A model generated the notes under the pieces. That model did no database searches. It saw nothing but the letters and a program-made list of their open reading frames with translations, and was not told where the DNA came from. The position numbers and the translations under genes are program-made. DNA of 64,000 bases. Origin: an uncultured Myxococcales bacterium. GTDB taxonomy: Bacteria > Myxococcota_A > UBA9042. Below, in pieces: positions 38,554 to 46,933 of this stretch (its first letter is position 1; the number at the start of each line of letters is the position of its first letter). Location of the stretch: contig CAIYBN010000120.1 in NCBI GenBank assembly GCA_903924465.1, positions 1-64,000 on the forward strand, read 5' to 3'.

Positions 38554-41500
38554 TCACGGACAAAATGTGGCTTTGTCGTCGCAGCAGTCGCCAAACGGAC
38601 CGGGCGTGCAGTTGACGTCGCACCAGCACAAGCCACCGCCAGATTTCTGACTCTTCCAGCCGCACATGTTTTGACAACCGCTCGTCGGCTTCGCGCAGTC
38701 GGCGGGACAGACGTGGTTGTTCTCACCGGCGCCGCACACGCCATTTCCGCAAGCCGGGCAATCAACTGGGCAGCTCGTCACCGTTTCGCCGGATTCGCAA
38801 ATTCCGTCGCCACAGTTGGGCGTGCCGCACTGGCCCAGGACGCATGATTGGCCGAGCGCGCAGGCAGTCCCGTCCGGTGCACCGCCGATGGCACAGCTGC
38901 CCGCTTGGCAGAAATCGACGGTGCACGGGTCACCGTCATCGCAAACCAACGCATCGCATGAAGCCGGACAGTCGCCGGGGCACGAGCTGCTGGTCTCCTT
39001 GATGTTGCATTTGCCGTCGCCACACGTGCCGAGTAACGGGCACGCCGTCGCGGATGAACAAAGGCCTCCGTCCAGACAAGTTCGGGGCGTCGCTGGCGCC
39101 GAGATCGTGCATTTGCCGGCGGCGCATCCGTCATCGGTGCAGGGATTGCCGTCGTCGCAAATGAGGCTTTCGCTGACACAGCCGCCGCTGGAGGCGCACG
39201 TCAAGCCGCCATGGCTGTCCGACCGGCGCAGCCAACCGCCGTCTGCCTGACTGCCCACCGCCCAGACACCGCTCGGAAGCCCGACGGTCGCCACGTCCAG
39301 CAACTGCGAGCCCGGAGAACCCAACGCGAGCGACAGCAACCCGCCGAGGGGCCCAAATCGTGCGATGCTGCCCTGCGAGATTCCGCCGATCACGCGCTGC
39401 ACCCCGACAGCGCTCGTGCCATCCGGGAGCACCGTCAGCGCGCGGACATCGGTCAAGCCACTGACCGGCCACTGCACGGCAAACTCGAAGACGCCGTCGG
39501 GTCCATAGCGCTCGACCGCCACGCCCTTGGCGCCCAAGCCAGCGACCAGCCAGCCGCCATCGGGCATCGTCGCCAGCGACGTCAAAGTGGCGACGCTGAG
39601 CGGTTTGGCCCACATTTCCTGCATGCTGGCGTCCAACCGATGCATTTTGGCGACCGTGCCTTCAACGGTGAGCACGCCACAGCCGCCTTGAGCCGCAGCC
39701 GCGACCGCGAGGCCGCTCGACAGCCCGAAACTGCCGGGCAAGGTCGTGGTGACACCGTTCCACGCGGCGTCGAAGCGCTCGATGAACGCCGTTTGCGCCG
39801 GGACACCGATGTCCGATGTGCCGACCACGACAACAGCGTCGTCGTTCAGGACGGCTATGGCTGTGGACTTGCCTGCACTTGCGCCGTCCACGCTGACCGC
39901 GGCCGCGAGAGCCGAACCCGTGTCGGTGACACGCCGAATCGTTCCGCCTGAATCGCCTTGCAAAATCACGGCCCACGCGTTGGCGAGGACCGCCACGTCG
40001 CTGATCGCGCCGCCCGCGACGGTCTGGCTCCACACGGTCTTGCCGGATGCATCGAGCCGAGCGACTGCGCCGGCTGGCCCCGCGACGACCGCGCCTCCGT
40101 CAGCACACGGCGCAATGTCCGACCAGGCGGCGACGCTGCCATCGGTGCTGTCGAACAGGCCGTCCACTCCGGCGGAGCATTTGCCAGACGCGCAGACGTC
40201 CACGACGGTGCAGACATTGCCGTCATCACAGGGCACGGACGCCAGGGGCGCGTGGCTGCAAGTGCCGCCAGCTGTGCAGACGTCGGTGGTGCACGCGAGG
40301 CCATCCGCGCACGCGCTCAACGTCAGGTTGCTACACAGCTGCGAGACCGCACAGTCGCCTTCGCCCCATGGATCGACGCGCAGGACCAAGCCAACTGCCG
40401 GCGCCGGTGTCTGGCCGGCGATCACGGCGCCACCGCCCGCCAGCAACGCGAGACTGTGCGCCGTCCCTGCTTGCTGCGTCTTTTGCCACTGCAAGTTGCC
40501 CGACAGGTCAAACGCGCCCTCCCAGACATTCGCGCCTTGCACACCGACAAATCGCCACGTGCCATCTGGCGCCACGACTCCGGCTGAGACTGCGGTCAAC
40601 GTGCCGGGCGACCAGAAGGCTCCATCCAGCCATGCGCCGTCCGCTGTCGTGTGTCCAAACCAACGCGACGTGTCGGCCCCATTCGGCCGCGAACCCGTCA
40701 CGTACGCCGTGCCGTCGGTAGCAACCGTGACCGCGGAGAACTCACTCCCGGCGCCACCAAAAGCCCGCTGCCACAGCACCGCACCCGATGCCGAATAGCG
40801 CACCATGAGCGCGGTTGCAGCATCAACCCCGAGGCCAGCGCAGGACCCGACCGCGAGCGCCCCACCATCAGGCAGTCCGACAACGCCGCGCAGCACGCTG
40901 GGACCAAAGCCATCGGCGGTCGCGGTCCACAACGGTGCCCCGGTGTCCTGAAGTCGTGCGATGTGGCCAGCCTTGTCCAAAGCCAGCCAGCCAGTCCCCT
41001 GCCCGACCAGCTGAACGACGTCGCCCGCACCCCACTTCGCGAACGGCAGAACTTTCTCCTGGAAGCCATTGGCGTGAATCAACTGGACAACCGCATCGGT
41101 CGAGGTGGCGCCACCCAACGCCAGCGAGCCGTCTGCGGCCACCGCGACGCTGCTGAAATGCGCATCGCCGGCCGGGTCGATCAGTGCCGGCAGATTCTCG
41201 ACCAGGTCTGACGCCGCATCGAGATGAACGGCCCAGCCTTCCTGCCACGACGCGCCGGCACGGGCACCGACAGCGACGATTTCACCGGCTGGCGTCGTGG
41301 CAACGGCGTTGAACTGGTCGTCTCCGCCCATGCCCCCGTCCAACGAGGTCGACCACAGCTTCGGTGAACTTGCACACACGCCCGCTGTGCACGATCCAAG
41401 CAGCTTGCACATGCCGTTCGCCGGGCAGCCGGAGCCGTCTTCCAGGTTCACGTTGCTGCAGCCGCCAATCGCGTCGCAGACGTCGGCGGTGCACGCGTTG

Positions 41501-42261
41501 CCGTCGTCGCACGTCGTCGCGCTGCCCGGCAGACACGCGCCGGCAGCACAATGGTCACCCACCGTGCAGACTGTTCCGTCCGTACAGGTCGTGGTGTCCG
41601 GCAGCGGCGTCCACGCCACCGGCGTCATCGCTGGCTGGCAAATCGCGCACGCATCTGGCGTCAGCGTACCGGCAACAAAGCACTGGCCCGCCACGATGCA
41701 CCAGTCCAGTAGCAGCGTTGTGTGGGTGCAAATGCCGTTCGCGCAGCTATCCCCTGTGCAGGGCAGTCCGTCATCAGGGCAGGACTGCGCCGCCAGGTCC
41801 GTGTGCGTGCAAGCGCCAGCCAGGTCGCAGTCGTCCAGCGTGCAAACATTTCCGTCGTCGCATTGACTTGGTGTGCAACTGGGGGCCACGTCCACGGCAT
41901 CGTTCCCGGCGTCATCGACCGCATCGACGGTCACAACGTCCTGCGTTGCCGTGACCGCATCCGCCACATCCGCTGTCACGTCCTGTGCGATTTCACCCGC
42001 TTGGATATCTCCGTTGACTTCGTGCGCGTCGTCCAGCGCATCGGGAGCCACATCATGGATATCGGCATCGCTGCTGGTCTTGGCGTCGACCACTTCGGTC
42101 TTCGCATCCTTGCCGACCGCATCGGTCCCCTCAACCGTCGCGTCTTCCACCAGAACGTCGCGCCCTTCCGGAAAGTGCGCGAGATCCGGAATGGCCACCG
42201 TGCAACCGACCAGCGCCAGCGACGCCGTCCAAATTCGCGCGATAGGGAAGCCGTGCCGCAT
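38554..42261 (-). CDS. Large lipoprotein: CTDC-type Cys repeats, two propeller-like regions, C-terminal somatomedin-B-like motif
   Basis: 'ALVGC' lipobox; 'CDDGNVCTLDDCDLAGACTH'; GG-rich WD/BNR-like repeats ('FNAVATTPAGEIVAVGARAG'); 'CGDGICESGETVTSCPVDCPACGNGVCGAGENNHVCPADC'. Confidence 0.75.
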   Translation of the reverse strand: MRHGFPIARIWTASLALVGCTVAIPDLAHFPEGRDVLVEDATVEGTDAVGKDAKTEVVDAKTSSDADIHDVAPDALDDAHEVNGDIQAGEIAQDVTADVADAVTATQDVVTVDAVDDAGNDAVDVAPSCTPSQCDDGNVCTLDDCDLAGACTHTDLAAQSCPDDGLPCTGDSCANGICTHTTLLLDWCIVAGQCFVAGTLTPDACAICQPAMTPVAWTPLPDTTTCTDGTVCTVGDHCAAGACLPGSATTCDDGNACTADVCDAIGGCSNVNLEDGSGCPANGMCKLLGSCTAGVCASSPKLWSTSLDGGMGGDDQFNAVATTPAGEIVAVGARAGASWQEGWAVHLDAASDLVENLPALIDPAGDAHFSSVAVAADGSLALGGATSTDAVVQLIHANGFQEKVLPFAKWGAGDVVQLVGQGTGWLALDKAGHIARLQDTGAPLWTATADGFGPSVLRGVVGLPDGGALAVGSCAGLGVDAATALMVRYSASGAVLWQRAFGGAGSEFSAVTVATDGTAYVTGSRPNGADTSRWFGHTTADGAWLDGAFWSPGTLTAVSAGVVAPDGTWRFVGVQGANVWEGAFDLSGNLQWQKTQQAGTAHSLALLAGGGAVIAGQTPAPAVGLVLRVDPWGEGDCAVSQLCSNLTLSACADGLACTTDVCTAGGTCSHAPLASVPCDDGNVCTVVDVCASGKCSAGVDGLFDSTDGSVAAWSDIAPCADGGAVVAGPAGAVARLDASGKTVWSQTVAGGAISDVAVLANAWAVILQGDSGGTIRRVTDTGSALAAAVSVDGASAGKSTAIAVLNDDAVVVVGTSDIGVPAQTAFIERFDAAWNGVTTTLPGSFGLSSGLAVAAAAQGGCGVLTVEGTVAKMHRLDASMQEMWAKPLSVATLTSLATMPDGGWLVAGLGAKGVAVERYGPDGVFEFAVQWPVSGLTDVRALTVLPDGTSAVGVQRVIGGISQGSIARFGPLGGLLSLALGSPGSQLLDVATVGLPSGVWAVGSQADGGWLRRSDSHGGLTCASSGGCVSESLICDDGNPCTDDGCAAGKCTISAPATPRTCLDGGLCSSATACPLLGTCGDGKCNIKETSSSCPGDCPASCDALVCDDGDPCTVDFCQAGSCAIGGAPDGTACALGQSCVLGQCGTPNCGDGICESGETVTSCPVDCPACGNGVCGAGENNHVCPADCAKPTSGCQNMCGWKSQKSGGGLCWCDVNCTPGPFGDCCDDKATFCP

Positions 42262-43286
42262 CAGAACCGCCAACTGAGAGAAGCGCCTGCCCACGCTGGC
42301 CCGGGCGCGACGGTCACCCTGGAACGCGCCGGCGCTGGATTCTCGCGCAGCAACAGCCACGTGCCGACCCCCGCCGCGACGACACCTGCCGCCGTAAATC
42401 CGACACCCAGCGACTCGTGCATGCCGATCGCGTCCGCCCGCGCCTGCGCTTGCGCGTGGCTCAGATCCGCGGTGACGTAGCCATCAACGAGTTTCAAGTC
42501 CCGGCTCAGCGCCTGCTCCTCGCTGACACCGTACAGCAGCAGTCCCGCTCCGCCGGCGACCAACGCGATGCCCGTTCCCAGCATCGTCCAGCCGAGAGTT
42601 CGCGCATTCTTGTCGTCGCCCCGGGCGGCCTGCTCGTGCACATCGATCGCGGTATGCCCCCCCTCCAGCCGTTGCAGGCACTCCTCGGCTTCCGGACGAT
42701 CGGCGGCGGAACGCGGGGCATCGCGCAGATATTGCCGCAGCAACTCGTTGGCCCTTTCCTGTGCGCCGCCCTGTTGCGCCGTCTGGCCGGCTTTGAACAG
42801 CGCGGACCAGCGGGTCGGCATCTGGTTCCATAGCGCCTCGTACAACTGCGAGGCTTCCGACCAACGCCCCGCAGCCGCCGCGGCATCGGCCTCCGATTCC
42901 TTGCTTCCAGCCCGACTGCCACGCAGATCGGCCAGATAGGCACGCGCCTTGTCCGCCCGATCGAGATCCGGATCCACGAGGCCCAGAAACTGCTCAAAGT
43001 GTTCTTCAGCGCTTGCGGTCTTGCCGGCGGACATCTCGGCCCGCGCAGCGGCGTAGAGGTAGTTCGGCTGGGTCGGATCGGTGCGAAAGGCTTCCAGATA
43101 CAGCGCTGCCGCTTGGACCGGATCGCCGGCCTCATCGAGCTGCAGGGCACGCCGCGCCAACGAACTCGCCACCTGCTCCGGCGGCACCGCCAGCGCAACC
43201 GTCGCCCACACGCACGCCAGAACCACCAGCACCCGGCTGGCCCGATGCATCGCGCGCAACAGCTGAATCCCGCTCGTCCTGATCAT
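42261..43286 (-). CDS. TPR-containing secreted/membrane protein
   Basis: Signal 'RVLVVLACVWATVALAVP', TPR-like helices, C-terminal TM segments 'TLGWTMLGTGIALVAGGAGLLLYGV' and 'GVGFTAAGVVAAGVGTWLLL'. TGATG stop/start coupling to downstream lipoprotein. Confidence 0.65.
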   Translation of the reverse strand: MIRTSGIQLLRAMHRASRVLVVLACVWATVALAVPPEQVASSLARRALQLDEAGDPVQAAALYLEAFRTDPTQPNYLYAAARAEMSAGKTASAEEHFEQFLGLVDPDLDRADKARAYLADLRGSRAGSKESEADAAAAAGRWSEASQLYEALWNQMPTRWSALFKAGQTAQQGGAQERANELLRQYLRDAPRSAADRPEAEECLQRLEGGHTAIDVHEQAARGDDKNARTLGWTMLGTGIALVAGGAGLLLYGVSEEQALSRDLKLVDGYVTADLSHAQAQARADAIGMHESLGVGFTAAGVVAAGVGTWLLLRENPAPARSRVTVAPGPAWAGASLSWRF

Positions 43287-43696: not shown

Positions 43697-46333
43697 ATGA
43701 ATCGCGCCGTCGCCGCCCTCGCTGCACTTGTCACCGGTACGCTGGTCTTTCTGGCTTTTCCGGGCTGGAACCTCCATTTCCTCGCGTGGTTCTGCTTTGT
43801 GCCGCTGATGATCGCCCTGGGCGCGGCCACGGTGCGCCAAGCCTTCTGGTTCGGCCTTCTCGCTGGCACCGTGACCAACGCCGGTGGTTTTCACTGGATG
43901 ACGGTGATGCTGGAGGAATTTGGCCACCTGCCGGCCATTGCCGCCTACGCGATTCTCGGCGTCGAGGCGCTGACCCAGGGGTTGACGATGGCGATCGGCT
44001 TCGCGCTCTGGCGCTGGCTCGTCGGCCGCGGGGCGCCGAGCGCGCTCACGTGCTGGCTGTCGTTGTGGGCCGGCGAGGCCGTCGTGCCCATGATCTTCCC
44101 GTGGTTCATGGGCAACGCGGTTTCCAAGGAATTGCCGATGATTCAGGTGGCGGATCTGGGCGGCGTCCACTTGGTGTCCGCCGTGATCTTCGCAGCGAAC
44201 GCCGCGCTGGCCGAGATCCCAACCGCCTTGCTGAACCGCCGCAAGCCGGCTTGGCTGTTCCTGCTCGCGACGCTGGCACTGGTCGGGGCAACGTGGGCCT
44301 ATGGCACGCTGCGCATCAGTCAGATCGACGCCGAGCAAGCGGCGGCCAAGAAAGTGCGCATCGGCATGGTGGAAGGCAATGTTGGTATTTGGGAAAAAGA
44401 AGCCAAGTACCTGCAGGGCGAAGCACGGTCGCGGACGTTGCGCCACAACCTGTTGAAACACCAGCAAATGTCAGCTCAGTTGGAGAAGGCCGGCGCGGAG
44501 CTGATTGTGTGGCCAGAAAGCGCCTATCAGCCGTACGGTTTTTCGCCCGTGCTGCACACGCTGGACCACTTTCTCGTCGTGGGCGACGGCGGGGCGATTT
44601 GGCGCCACGATGGCGAAGTCCTGCACGCCGAAAATGGCCAGCGACTGGGTTTGCCGCGCGACGTCAAGCTGCTGTCAGGCATTTCCTCGCCGCGGGGCGA
44701 CATTTGGCGGGTCATCGATCAGGGCAAGCGCATCTTGACCGTGACGCCCAAAGGCACTTCGGTCGTCGACATGCCGTCCGGCGAAACTGCGGTCGCGAGC
44801 GTCTTTGCGCCGGTTGACCCGTTTGGCCGAATGCCTGCGGGTGTGGTGATCGCCAGCAGTGGGCGCATGTGGCTGCTGCCGGTGGTCGATTACCTCGCGG
44901 CGCGCGAACCGGACGTGCACCCAGTGCCGGATCCCGGCGACGGCACCAAGCTCGTGCCGCTGACCGAGCAGGCGTTGGGGCCCGTCACGCTGACAGCGGC
45001 GGCGCGGTCCGGGACGGGCATCACCGTCGCGGTCGGTTTGGGCGGCACGATCATCCAGGCGATTGGCAATCAGGTGCGCAAGTTGGAGTCACCGACGCGC
45101 GTGGATCTGTGGACGGTCGCCGCGGACCCGCAAGGCGACGGGATCATCGCGGGTGGCCAAGGCGGCACCGTCCTGCGCAGCGACGGTTTTCGCTGGCTCG
45201 TCGACACCCTCGGCGACAAGGACTGGTACGCCGCATGGTTCGGCGCCGACGGCAGCGCCTGGCTGGCCGGCAAGGACGGTGCGATCGCGCATAAGTTGCC
45301 GTTGGGCGGCTGGAAACTCCTGCCGCCTCTCGCAACCGTGGATTTGGTCGCGGGTGGTTCAGATGCGGATGGCAATGTGCTGGTCGTCGGTCGCGGCGGC
45401 CGCATCTGGTTCGGCCAGCCGGGCAAACTGCAGGAAATCAACACGGGCTCCGCTGGTGAAATCACGGCCGTTCTCGGACAATTGCCCCAACTCAGCTACC
45501 TGACCCCGCGTTCCGCCAAACGCATCGTCGCCAGCCAGACGCCGCTGCCGAGCCCGGACCTGAAATTTCCAAACGATGTGCAAGCCGATGAGCTGACGCC
45601 AGAAGCCGATCGCTCCAGCCCACGACGTGGTTTCACGACGCCGCTGCTGTACGGCGCCATGACCCACGCGAGTGAACTGCCCACGCACCACGCAGGCTGC
45701 AAGGACTGCTTCAATTCTGCATTGTTGCAAGGACCGCACGGCGAAATCCAGGCCGTCTACGACAAGGCGTTCCTGCTGATGTTTGGCGAATACATCCCGT
45801 TCGGCGAGGAATTTCCGCAGTTGTACGAGCTGTCGCCCGAGACCTCGCGCTTTCAGTCGGGCACGCGCACGGCGCCGATTGAGCTGAAGCTCAAGAACGA
45901 TCGGACGGCGCGAATCGGCATGCTGATCTGCTACGAGGATTTGGTGCCGCGCTATGCCAAGCGCGTCGCTGCGCACGATCCGAACGTCTTCATCAACGTG
46001 ACCAACGACGCCTGGTTCGGCCAAAGTGCCGAGCCGGAGCATCACTTGAACCTGGCGCTGATTCGCGCGGTGGAGTACCGCCGCTGGCTGTTGCGTTCGA
46101 CCAATACCGGCATTTCCGTGTTCATCGACGCGGTCGGCCGGCGTGTCGCGGAAACGAAGCTGACGGGCGAAGAAACGCTGATGCGCGACGTGCCGCTCCT
46201 GGAGGGGCGGACGGTGTATGCGATGCTGGGCGATTGGCCGCTCGCGAGTCTGGCGCTTGGGCTCACGTGGCTGTGGGCGCGCACGTGGGGCGGTGGCAAG
46301 GGCAAAAAGTCCAGAAAGCGCGCGAAAGCGTAG
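43697..46333 (+). CDS. lnt: Apolipoprotein N-acyltransferase with large propeller-like insertion
   Basis: N-terminal Lnt TM region, 'RIGMVEGNVGIWEKE', 'LIVWPESAY' (Glu), 'YDKAFLLMFGEYIPFGE' (Lys), 'RIGMLICYEDLVP' (Cys), 'VNVTNDAWFGQSAEPEHHLNLALIRAVEYRRWLLRSTNTGIS'. Confidence 0.93.
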   Translation: MNRAVAALAALVTGTLVFLAFPGWNLHFLAWFCFVPLMIALGAATVRQAFWFGLLAGTVTNAGGFHWMTVMLEEFGHLPAIAAYAILGVEALTQGLTMAIGFALWRWLVGRGAPSALTCWLSLWAGEAVVPMIFPWFMGNAVSKELPMIQVADLGGVHLVSAVIFAANAALAEIPTALLNRRKPAWLFLLATLALVGATWAYGTLRISQIDAEQAAAKKVRIGMVEGNVGIWEKEAKYLQGEARSRTLRHNLLKHQQMSAQLEKAGAELIVWPESAYQPYGFSPVLHTLDHFLVVGDGGAIWRHDGEVLHAENGQRLGLPRDVKLLSGISSPRGDIWRVIDQGKRILTVTPKGTSVVDMPSGETAVASVFAPVDPFGRMPAGVVIASSGRMWLLPVVDYLAAREPDVHPVPDPGDGTKLVPLTEQALGPVTLTAAARSGTGITVAVGLGGTIIQAIGNQVRKLESPTRVDLWTVAADPQGDGIIAGGQGGTVLRSDGFRWLVDTLGDKDWYAAWFGADGSAWLAGKDGAIAHKLPLGGWKLLPPLATVDLVAGGSDADGNVLVVGRGGRIWFGQPGKLQEINTGSAGEITAVLGQLPQLSYLTPRSAKRIVASQTPLPSPDLKFPNDVQADELTPEADRSSPRRGFTTPLLYGAMTHASELPTHHAGCKDCFNSALLQGPHGEIQAVYDKAFLLMFGEYIPFGEEFPQLYELSPETSRFQSGTRTAPIELKLKNDRTARIGMLICYEDLVPRYAKRVAAHDPNVFINVTNDAWFGQSAEPEHHLNLALIRAVEYRRWLLRSTNTGISVFIDAVGRRVAETKLTGEETLMRDVPLLEGRTVYAMLGDWPLASLALGLTWLWARTWGGGKGKKSRKRAKA

Positions 46334-46336
46334 TCG

Positions 46337-46933
46337 CTACGACGGGGTCTCAGCGGTCGGCGGCTCTACGAGATCCGGAACCGGCGGCGACTGACCGGGC
46401 GGCTGCGGCTGCGGCGAAACGATGCGCAGCGACTCCATGAAAGCCCGGAGTTCCTTGCGTCGGTCCTTGATGACACCCGTCGGCCCAGCGACGGTCAGCG
46501 CATACATCCCGTCCTCCGCCACGCACAGCATCAGCCACAGGGACGTCGGCGGATCCTGTTTGCGCAGCGTCGTCGCCTCCACCAGCCGACCTTCCAGATC
46601 GCCCAGTTGCACGATGCTGTCGCCCATCACGTCGGCCTCGCCGCCTTCTTGCATCGTGCGGATCACGCGATCCAGTTGCGCGTTCATGCCATCGCCAGGT
46701 TCCTGTTGCCGACGCACGGTCAACAGAATCGGGCCGTCGTTCGATGGCCAGAGCCAGGTCAGCGGCGCAGCGACGTCCAGCCCTTTGGGCACAATCACCG
46801 ACGCGTGTGGCGCGCCCAGCAGCGGGTGACGCAAACCGTCCGTTTTGGCCAGCTCCGGCACGACATCGGTGCCACTGCACGCGGTCAACGTCAACGCGGC
46901 GAGCAGCTGCAGGAATCGGCTGAAAAATCGCAC
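46337..46933 (-). CDS. Lipoprotein of unknown function
   Basis: 198 aa, lipobox 'ALTLTAC'. Confidence 0.6.
   Translation of the reverse strand: MRFFSRFLQLLAALTLTACSGTDVVPELAKTDGLRHPLLGAPHASVIVPKGLDVAAPLTWLWPSNDGPILLTVRRQQEPGDGMNAQLDRVIRTMQEGGEADVMGDSIVQLGDLEGRLVEATTLRKQDPPTSLWLMLCVAEDGMYALTVAGPTGVIKDRRKELRAFMESLRIVSPQPQPPGQSPPVPDLVEPPTAETPS

Follow-up and report, generated by a model that had tools for sequence, protein, structure and literature searches.

Apolipoprotein N-acyltransferase (Lnt), which attaches the third fatty acid of lipoproteins, is a housekeeping enzyme that in the usual view handles its apolipoprotein substrates with no domain devoted to recognizing them. Extra domains on an Lnt have a precedent in mycobacteria, where Lnt homologs are linked to Ppm1 (BCG_2070c). 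There a glycosyltransferase domain is fused to one end of the protein and does not lie inside the nitrilase domain. In the E. coli enzyme (LntEco) a funnel of arms leads down to the active site at its base, and this funnel is the route by which lipid and lipoprotein arrive from the membrane (PMC5500888). It has been argued that the stretch following the lipoprotein cysteine needs to be an unfolded tether in canonical Lnt (PMC5500888). The second system of relevance here is the photosystem II assembly factor YCF48, a propeller of the lumen. The C-terminal tail of D1, which is unfolded, winds around it, and the contact with D1 is made by a conserved patch of arginine residues (PMC10403576).

Here we describe a bacterial Lnt, termed Lnt2, whose nitrilase domain is interrupted by a predicted seven-bladed beta-propeller. 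No Lnt with an inserted propeller was found in searches of the open full-text literature, in agreement with the sequence-only reading of this DNA, whose author knew of no described Lnt of this architecture. Neither the enzyme family nor the fold is new; what appears to be undescribed is their combination, and with it the site of insertion.

The lnt2 gene encodes an intact member of the Lnt family

The gene lies in the window, by which we mean the whole 64,000-nucleotide stretch of DNA that was analyzed. Its features are as follows.

43697..46333, + strand: lnt2, apolipoprotein N-acyltransferase with an inserted beta-propeller (878 aa; homologs are stop-free too)
43697..44344, + strand: N-terminal membrane domain, residues 1-216 (Pfam LNT_N at 14-170; helices in the model)
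44345..44536, + strand: nitrilase domain, first part (beta1, alpha1, beta2), residues 217-280 (model and homology to Lnt)
44516..44518, + strand: catalytic Glu274 (VWPES from residue 271; invariant in 146 aligned Lnt homologs)
44537..45505, + strand: inserted, predicted seven-bladed beta-propeller, residues ~281-603 (AlphaFold2, Foldseek and profile match)
45506..45640, + strand: post-propeller linker (PRSAKRI...TPLP...DR..PRRGF), residues 604-648 (kept in propeller-free relatives)
45641..46201, + strand: nitrilase domain, second part from beta3, residues 649-835 (best CN_hydrolase stretch 667-834; model)
45698..45709, + strand: CxxC pair C668-x-x-C671 in the beta3-beta4 hairpin (18 of 18 family sequences; alignment)
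45764..45766, + strand: catalytic Lys690 (YDK from residue 688; alignment)
45788..45790, + strand: conserved Glu698 of FGEY (invariant in 146 homologs; canonical Lnt has an equivalent conserved Glu)
45929..45937, + strand: catalytic Cys745 and Glu747 (ICYED from residue 744; Cys745 in 146/146)
46235..46288, + strand: C-terminal membrane helix, residues 847-864 (model)

The open reading frame at 43697-46333 (+) contains no internal stop codon over its 878 codons. Pfam LNT_N (1.4e-21) and CN_hydrolase (1.9e-23) flank the insert, with no match between them, and together with the C-terminal helix of the model they give the domain order of the family, i.e. LNT_N membrane domain, CN_hydrolase domain and C-terminal membrane helix. 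The protein scores 208.6 bits against the NCBIfam model TIGR00546 (lnt), for which the cut-off is 132.9. Sequence matches in the PDB are to the P. aeruginosa and E. coli Lnt on either side of the insert, and in a structural search with the full model each of the 24 top matches was an Lnt.

Like the canonical enzymes of E. coli and P. aeruginosa (PDB 5N6H and 5N6M; TIGR00546), Lnt2 has membrane and nitrilase domains and a Glu-Lys-Cys triad, comprising Glu274, Lys690 and Cys745, and it shares the conserved glutamates of FGE and CYE. The five positions E-K-E-C-E are kept across 146 aligned homologs; the sole exception is one protein (L164) with Asp in place of Glu747. The proposal from the letters alone that this is a single intact Lnt is therefore upheld.

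Two smaller features set the window protein apart from canonical Lnt. The sequence that follows beta1, which is Arm 7 in LntEco, reads EGNVGIWEKEAK, compared with QGN-type segments in the canonical form (Lnt1, see below). In addition, the window protein's family has an extra CxxC, C668-x-x-C671, which is absent from every other aligned Lnt including the Lnt1 of the same genome. Possibly this pair forms a disulfide or a redox switch.

The nitrilase domain is interrupted by a predicted seven-bladed propeller

Measured between fixed alignment columns, the insert of the window protein is 369 aa in length, compared with ~18-42 aa for most canonical Lnts using the same measure. It lies between Glu274 and Lys690, and the insertion of ~350 aa inside the nitrilase domain noted earlier is confirmed. 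Its span had been placed at 44549-45616 (residues 285-640). An insert is indeed found there, but the boundaries have been reset to a propeller at residues ~281-603 followed by the linker at 604-648. The suggestion that it takes the place of a lid loop has to be abandoned. The segment that is interrupted is the crossing from beta2 to beta3 of the nitrilase domain, which is short in canonical Lnt and corresponds to helix alpha2 there; in our reading this crossing also includes an active-site arm. The 'lid' of LntEco is L1 of the membrane domain (PMC5500888).

AlphaFold2 modeling of the full chain using a 50-sequence alignment gave a mean pLDDT of 91.3 and a pTM of 0.91, with the insert as a compact and confidently predicted domain. 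Residues ~283-600 of the model form seven groups of about four strands each, and the ring is closed by strands 589-600, which complete the first blade against 292-312. When the insert was folded alone, with an alignment of 12 homologous inserts, the same strands were predicted, with a core pLDDT of ~90. Judged from the strand elements of the model, the insert is thus predicted to be a closed ring of seven blades, each of about four antiparallel strands. In a Foldseek search with the insert the top match was YCF48 (E = 2.9e-9, probability 1.00; 5OJR), and seven-bladed propellers of artificial design (the WRAP designs) were among those that came next. The relationship also shows in sequence, since a profile derived from 42 homologous inserts hits Ycf48 chains with E ~1e-12. 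The earlier assignment to a YCF48/BNR-type beta-propeller is well supported by these data, and structure prediction together with profile search provides strong evidence for a propeller, albeit a modeled one.

Matching of individual sequences gave a more mixed result for the Pfam comparison that had been suggested. Pfam PF14870 (PSII_BNR) matches four of the 42 homologous inserts at E ≤ 0.01, the best at 1.8e-7, but the window insert by itself has no significant match in single-sequence searches of Pfam, NCBIfam or the PDB, PF14870 included. Its relatives were revealed only by profile search and structure. Since the window insert matches no family alone, we describe it as a YCF48-like propeller and not as a member of the Ycf48 family. 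Lnt2 has in common with Ycf48/HCF136 (PF14870; 5OJR, 2XBG) the seven-bladed fold and an extracytoplasmic location, and this is the best PDB match of the insert. The Lnt2 propeller differs in not being a free lipoprotein, and the sequence identity is 13%. Moreover, no Arg occurs among the propeller columns conserved in at least 70% of the 42 inserts, leaving no counterpart of the Ycf48 arginine patch; all the conserved Arg are in the linker that follows the propeller.

G-G-turn motifs recur every 38-44 aa in the inserts. One homolog (L114) has seven, with spacings of 44, 43, 41, 42, 39 and 39. The window protein has five such motifs compared with a mean of 1.4 after shuffling, but some single shuffles also gave five. 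For the window protein the motif count taken alone is therefore weak evidence for a propeller, and we have not relied upon it.

Conservation of the propeller

The same full-length protein is found in four other genomes of the genus, with 87-91% identity. Most genomes of the family carry a propeller Lnt at 51-62% identity, and other families of the same class have one at 31-37%. The insertion is consequently present in Myxococcota homologs at the level of genus, family and class, the group in which the sequence-only reading had proposed to look for it. Nearly all of the homologs with this architecture are stop-free, in a single open frame, and come from independent assemblies. This bears directly upon the question of whether the protein might arise from a frameshift, a chimeric contig or the fusion of lnt with a propeller gene. 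The genome of the window is a draft of 149 contigs, but nothing was found in support of an artefact. Against it stand the identical architecture in one open frame in independent assemblies from genus, family and class, and the prediction of one confident fold with a pTM of 0.91. We consider such an origin extremely improbable and have rejected it.

In three comparisons within the genus the dN/dS ratio was 0.09-0.13 for the propeller, 0.01-0.08 for the nitrilase parts and 0.09-0.12 for the membrane domain. The propeller is therefore under constraint, and at the level of codons we conclude that it is subject to purifying selection. Over longer distances its identity is 37-49%, compared with 70-76% in the second nitrilase part, and the propeller is the fastest-diverging folded part of Lnt2.

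The empty site and the history of the insertion

Propeller-free forms of Lnt2 exist in two other Myxococcota families (f30 and f43; e.g. L173, L185 and L186). These belong to the same subfamily in the tree, and have the same catalytic residues and the same linker motif, PR.AK....S..PL...DR..P.RGF, but they have 41-44 aa at the site where propeller forms have 337-424 aa. In L173, for example, the sequence at the site is GYLPRSAKRFPPSKAPLVADDRADDAQNTSTRDRNAPIRGFDT. This aligns by eye with the stretch that follows the propeller in the window protein, YLTPRSAKRIVASQTPLPSPDLKFPNDVQADELTPEADRSSPRRGF, so that the window propeller sits between Glu274-SAYQPYG and the linker. Inside the class, L115, L136 and L137 keep the linker (68-90 aa) without a propeller. 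Standing alone in propeller-free relatives, the linker is thus 41-90 aa in length. In L043 the insert is shortened to 237 aa with fewer than seven repeat units, perhaps a smaller or degenerating propeller. Absence or shortening in these four proteins indicates that the propeller is dispensable in some lineages, and the propeller-free members of the same subfamily show, at the level of the alignment, that neither the Lnt sequence core nor the triad depends on it.

The Lnt-like proteins of families f41 and f42 (L180, L181 and L183; also L045 and L046) are of the same subfamily and likewise carry additional sequence here, ahead of the shared linker. Their segment is different, with a length of 135-142 aa and a sequence that by eye looks helix-like and unlike that of a propeller. 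The occurrence of a different segment at the same position in other families makes the site look like a reusable slot for modules.

Trees of Lnt2 were calculated using FastTree and a fast IQ-TREE run. The deep branches, on which the order of propeller-bearing and linker-only members and the choice between single and multiple gains depend, were poorly supported by both. Losses are reasonably supported only for f5 (L136/L137) and near f7 (L115). The simplest reading would be one gain of the propeller in the ancestor of the class or of a slightly wider group, followed by several losses.

These data also bear on whether the propeller does anything at all. It might be a tolerated and largely passive insertion, folding by itself, leaving catalysis undisturbed and having no specific docking role. 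Its rapid divergence without a conserved surface cluster would be expected on that basis, as would the existence, both within this class and outside it in other classes, of members that lack the propeller but have the triad intact. Yet among the genomes examined from the various families of the class, most have kept the ~320 extra residues, with dN/dS ~0.1, and a passive insertion of such length should have been lost more often. We therefore regard a purely passive propeller as rather unlikely.

Lnt2 generally coexists with a canonical Lnt

The genome of the window encodes a canonical Lnt elsewhere (Lnt1, C115:58654-60183, with an open frame of 545 aa), and most relatives likewise encode a canonical Lnt beside the propeller form. 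In a tree constructed from Lnt columns only, the canonical Lnt groups with those of other phyla. A separate Lnt2 group comprises Myxococcota and delta-proteobacterial records, and includes all the propeller-bearing sequences. The search for Lnt family members covered 31 genomes of the class and phylum; the homolog scan of genome contigs took the best 80 loci, with limited coverage beyond Myxococcota.

In four genomes (G028, G035, G036 and G045, which are 94, 87, 90 and 96% complete respectively) no Lnt other than the propeller form exceeds the family cut-off. Incompleteness of a draft could explain single cases of this kind, but less easily all four. In these organisms Lnt2 is therefore probably general for lipoproteins, and its sole occurrence there argues that it is a working Lnt.

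The coexistence of two enzymes raises a different reading, in which Lnt2 is a related membrane acyltransferase or amidase acting on some other periplasmic amine, with the propeller conferring specificity, while Lnt1 handles the lipoproteins. A canonical Lnt is present in most genomes, the Lnt2 subfamily is deeply separate in the tree, and the segment after beta1 differs from the QGN type of Lnt1, all of which would fit. Set against this, all the catalytic and conserved Glu residues are retained, the score exceeds the NCBI lnt equivalog cut-off, and Lnt2 is the sole Lnt found in the four genomes above. We consider a change of substrate class improbable.

Two genomes have two copies of Lnt2. In G044 one copy (L130) carries the propeller and the other (L137) lacks it, and no canonical Lnt was found in this genome. 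G043 has two propeller-bearing copies (L129 and L140).

A possible role for the propeller

The anatomy of Lnt2, its conservation and the empty site are the most reliable of our results, and the function of the propeller is the least reliable. We think it somewhat better than an even chance that Lnt2 is active as an N-acyltransferase and that its propeller serves, in the periplasm next to the active-site funnel, as a dock for apolipoproteins or for a partner. The main rivals to docking are the passive spacer and the non-lipoprotein substrate considered above.

From the properties of the Lnt family, Cys745 would take an acyl chain from phospholipid as a thioester, and would then pass it to the N-terminal cysteine of a diacylated apolipoprotein on the periplasmic side of the inner membrane. 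Only ~9 residues separate Glu274 from the first strand of the propeller, so the propeller must adjoin the funnel of arms. Geometry, the length of this connection and the overall pTM of the model together suggest a position near the funnel on the periplasmic side. We propose that the propeller could act there as a non-catalytic docking platform. Its ligand would be either the unfolded stretch that follows the lipoprotein cysteine or some partner, for instance an acceptor or a sorting protein. Docking would raise the local concentration of some substrates, and would bias the choice of lipoprotein by Lnt2 in a cell that usually also contains canonical Lnt. By analogy, YCF48 may be a precedent for an extracytoplasmic propeller that handles an unfolded tail.

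The conserved positions of the propeller are mostly structural Gly and Asp residues of the blade turns, and no conserved polar cluster or surface motif was found among the propeller columns of the 42 inserts. This makes a second catalytic function unlikely, and a lineage-variable binding surface would fit the alignment better than a second enzyme. Some observations count against docking. The propeller is the fastest-changing folded part and lacks a conserved surface motif, as would also be expected of a passive spacer, and it is absent or shortened in L115, L136, L137 and L043. No conserved gene neighbor that might suggest a partner emerged from a crude comparison of neighborhoods, which was blurred by antisense ORFs in GC-rich DNA; some ORFs recurred near lnt2 within some families.

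A broader scheme is more doubtful, and we offer it tentatively. The propeller might select apolipoproteins for triacylation or hand them to the sorting machinery, the two Lnts might divide the lipoproteome between them, and the insertion site might be a module slot that carries a different domain in other lineages. With a propeller, natural propeller-free versions and a canonical paralog, the substrate selectivity of Lnt becomes directly testable, and in the same system so does any coupling of lipoprotein acylation to sorting in these Myxococcota. The natural empty site provides an exact design for deletion of the domain.

Neighboring genes

The window had been thought unusually rich in large lipoproteins. 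A crude count of lipoboxes gave 3 per 64 kb in the window versus 1.8 when 324 kb of this genome were counted, numbers that are too few and reveal no clear excess, so this impression was not substantiated.

A short convergent ORF at 46337-46933 (-) ends 3 bases from the stop codon of lnt2. It has a lipobox-like N-terminus, LTLTACSG, and matches no Pfam family. Upstream of lnt2, 38554-42360 (-) encodes a protein of 1268 aa that is predicted to be secreted; it begins with a lipobox-like sequence and has cysteine repeats of the Dictyostelium CTDC type (PF00526, E = 1.1e-11). The gene for a TPR protein separates it from lnt2.
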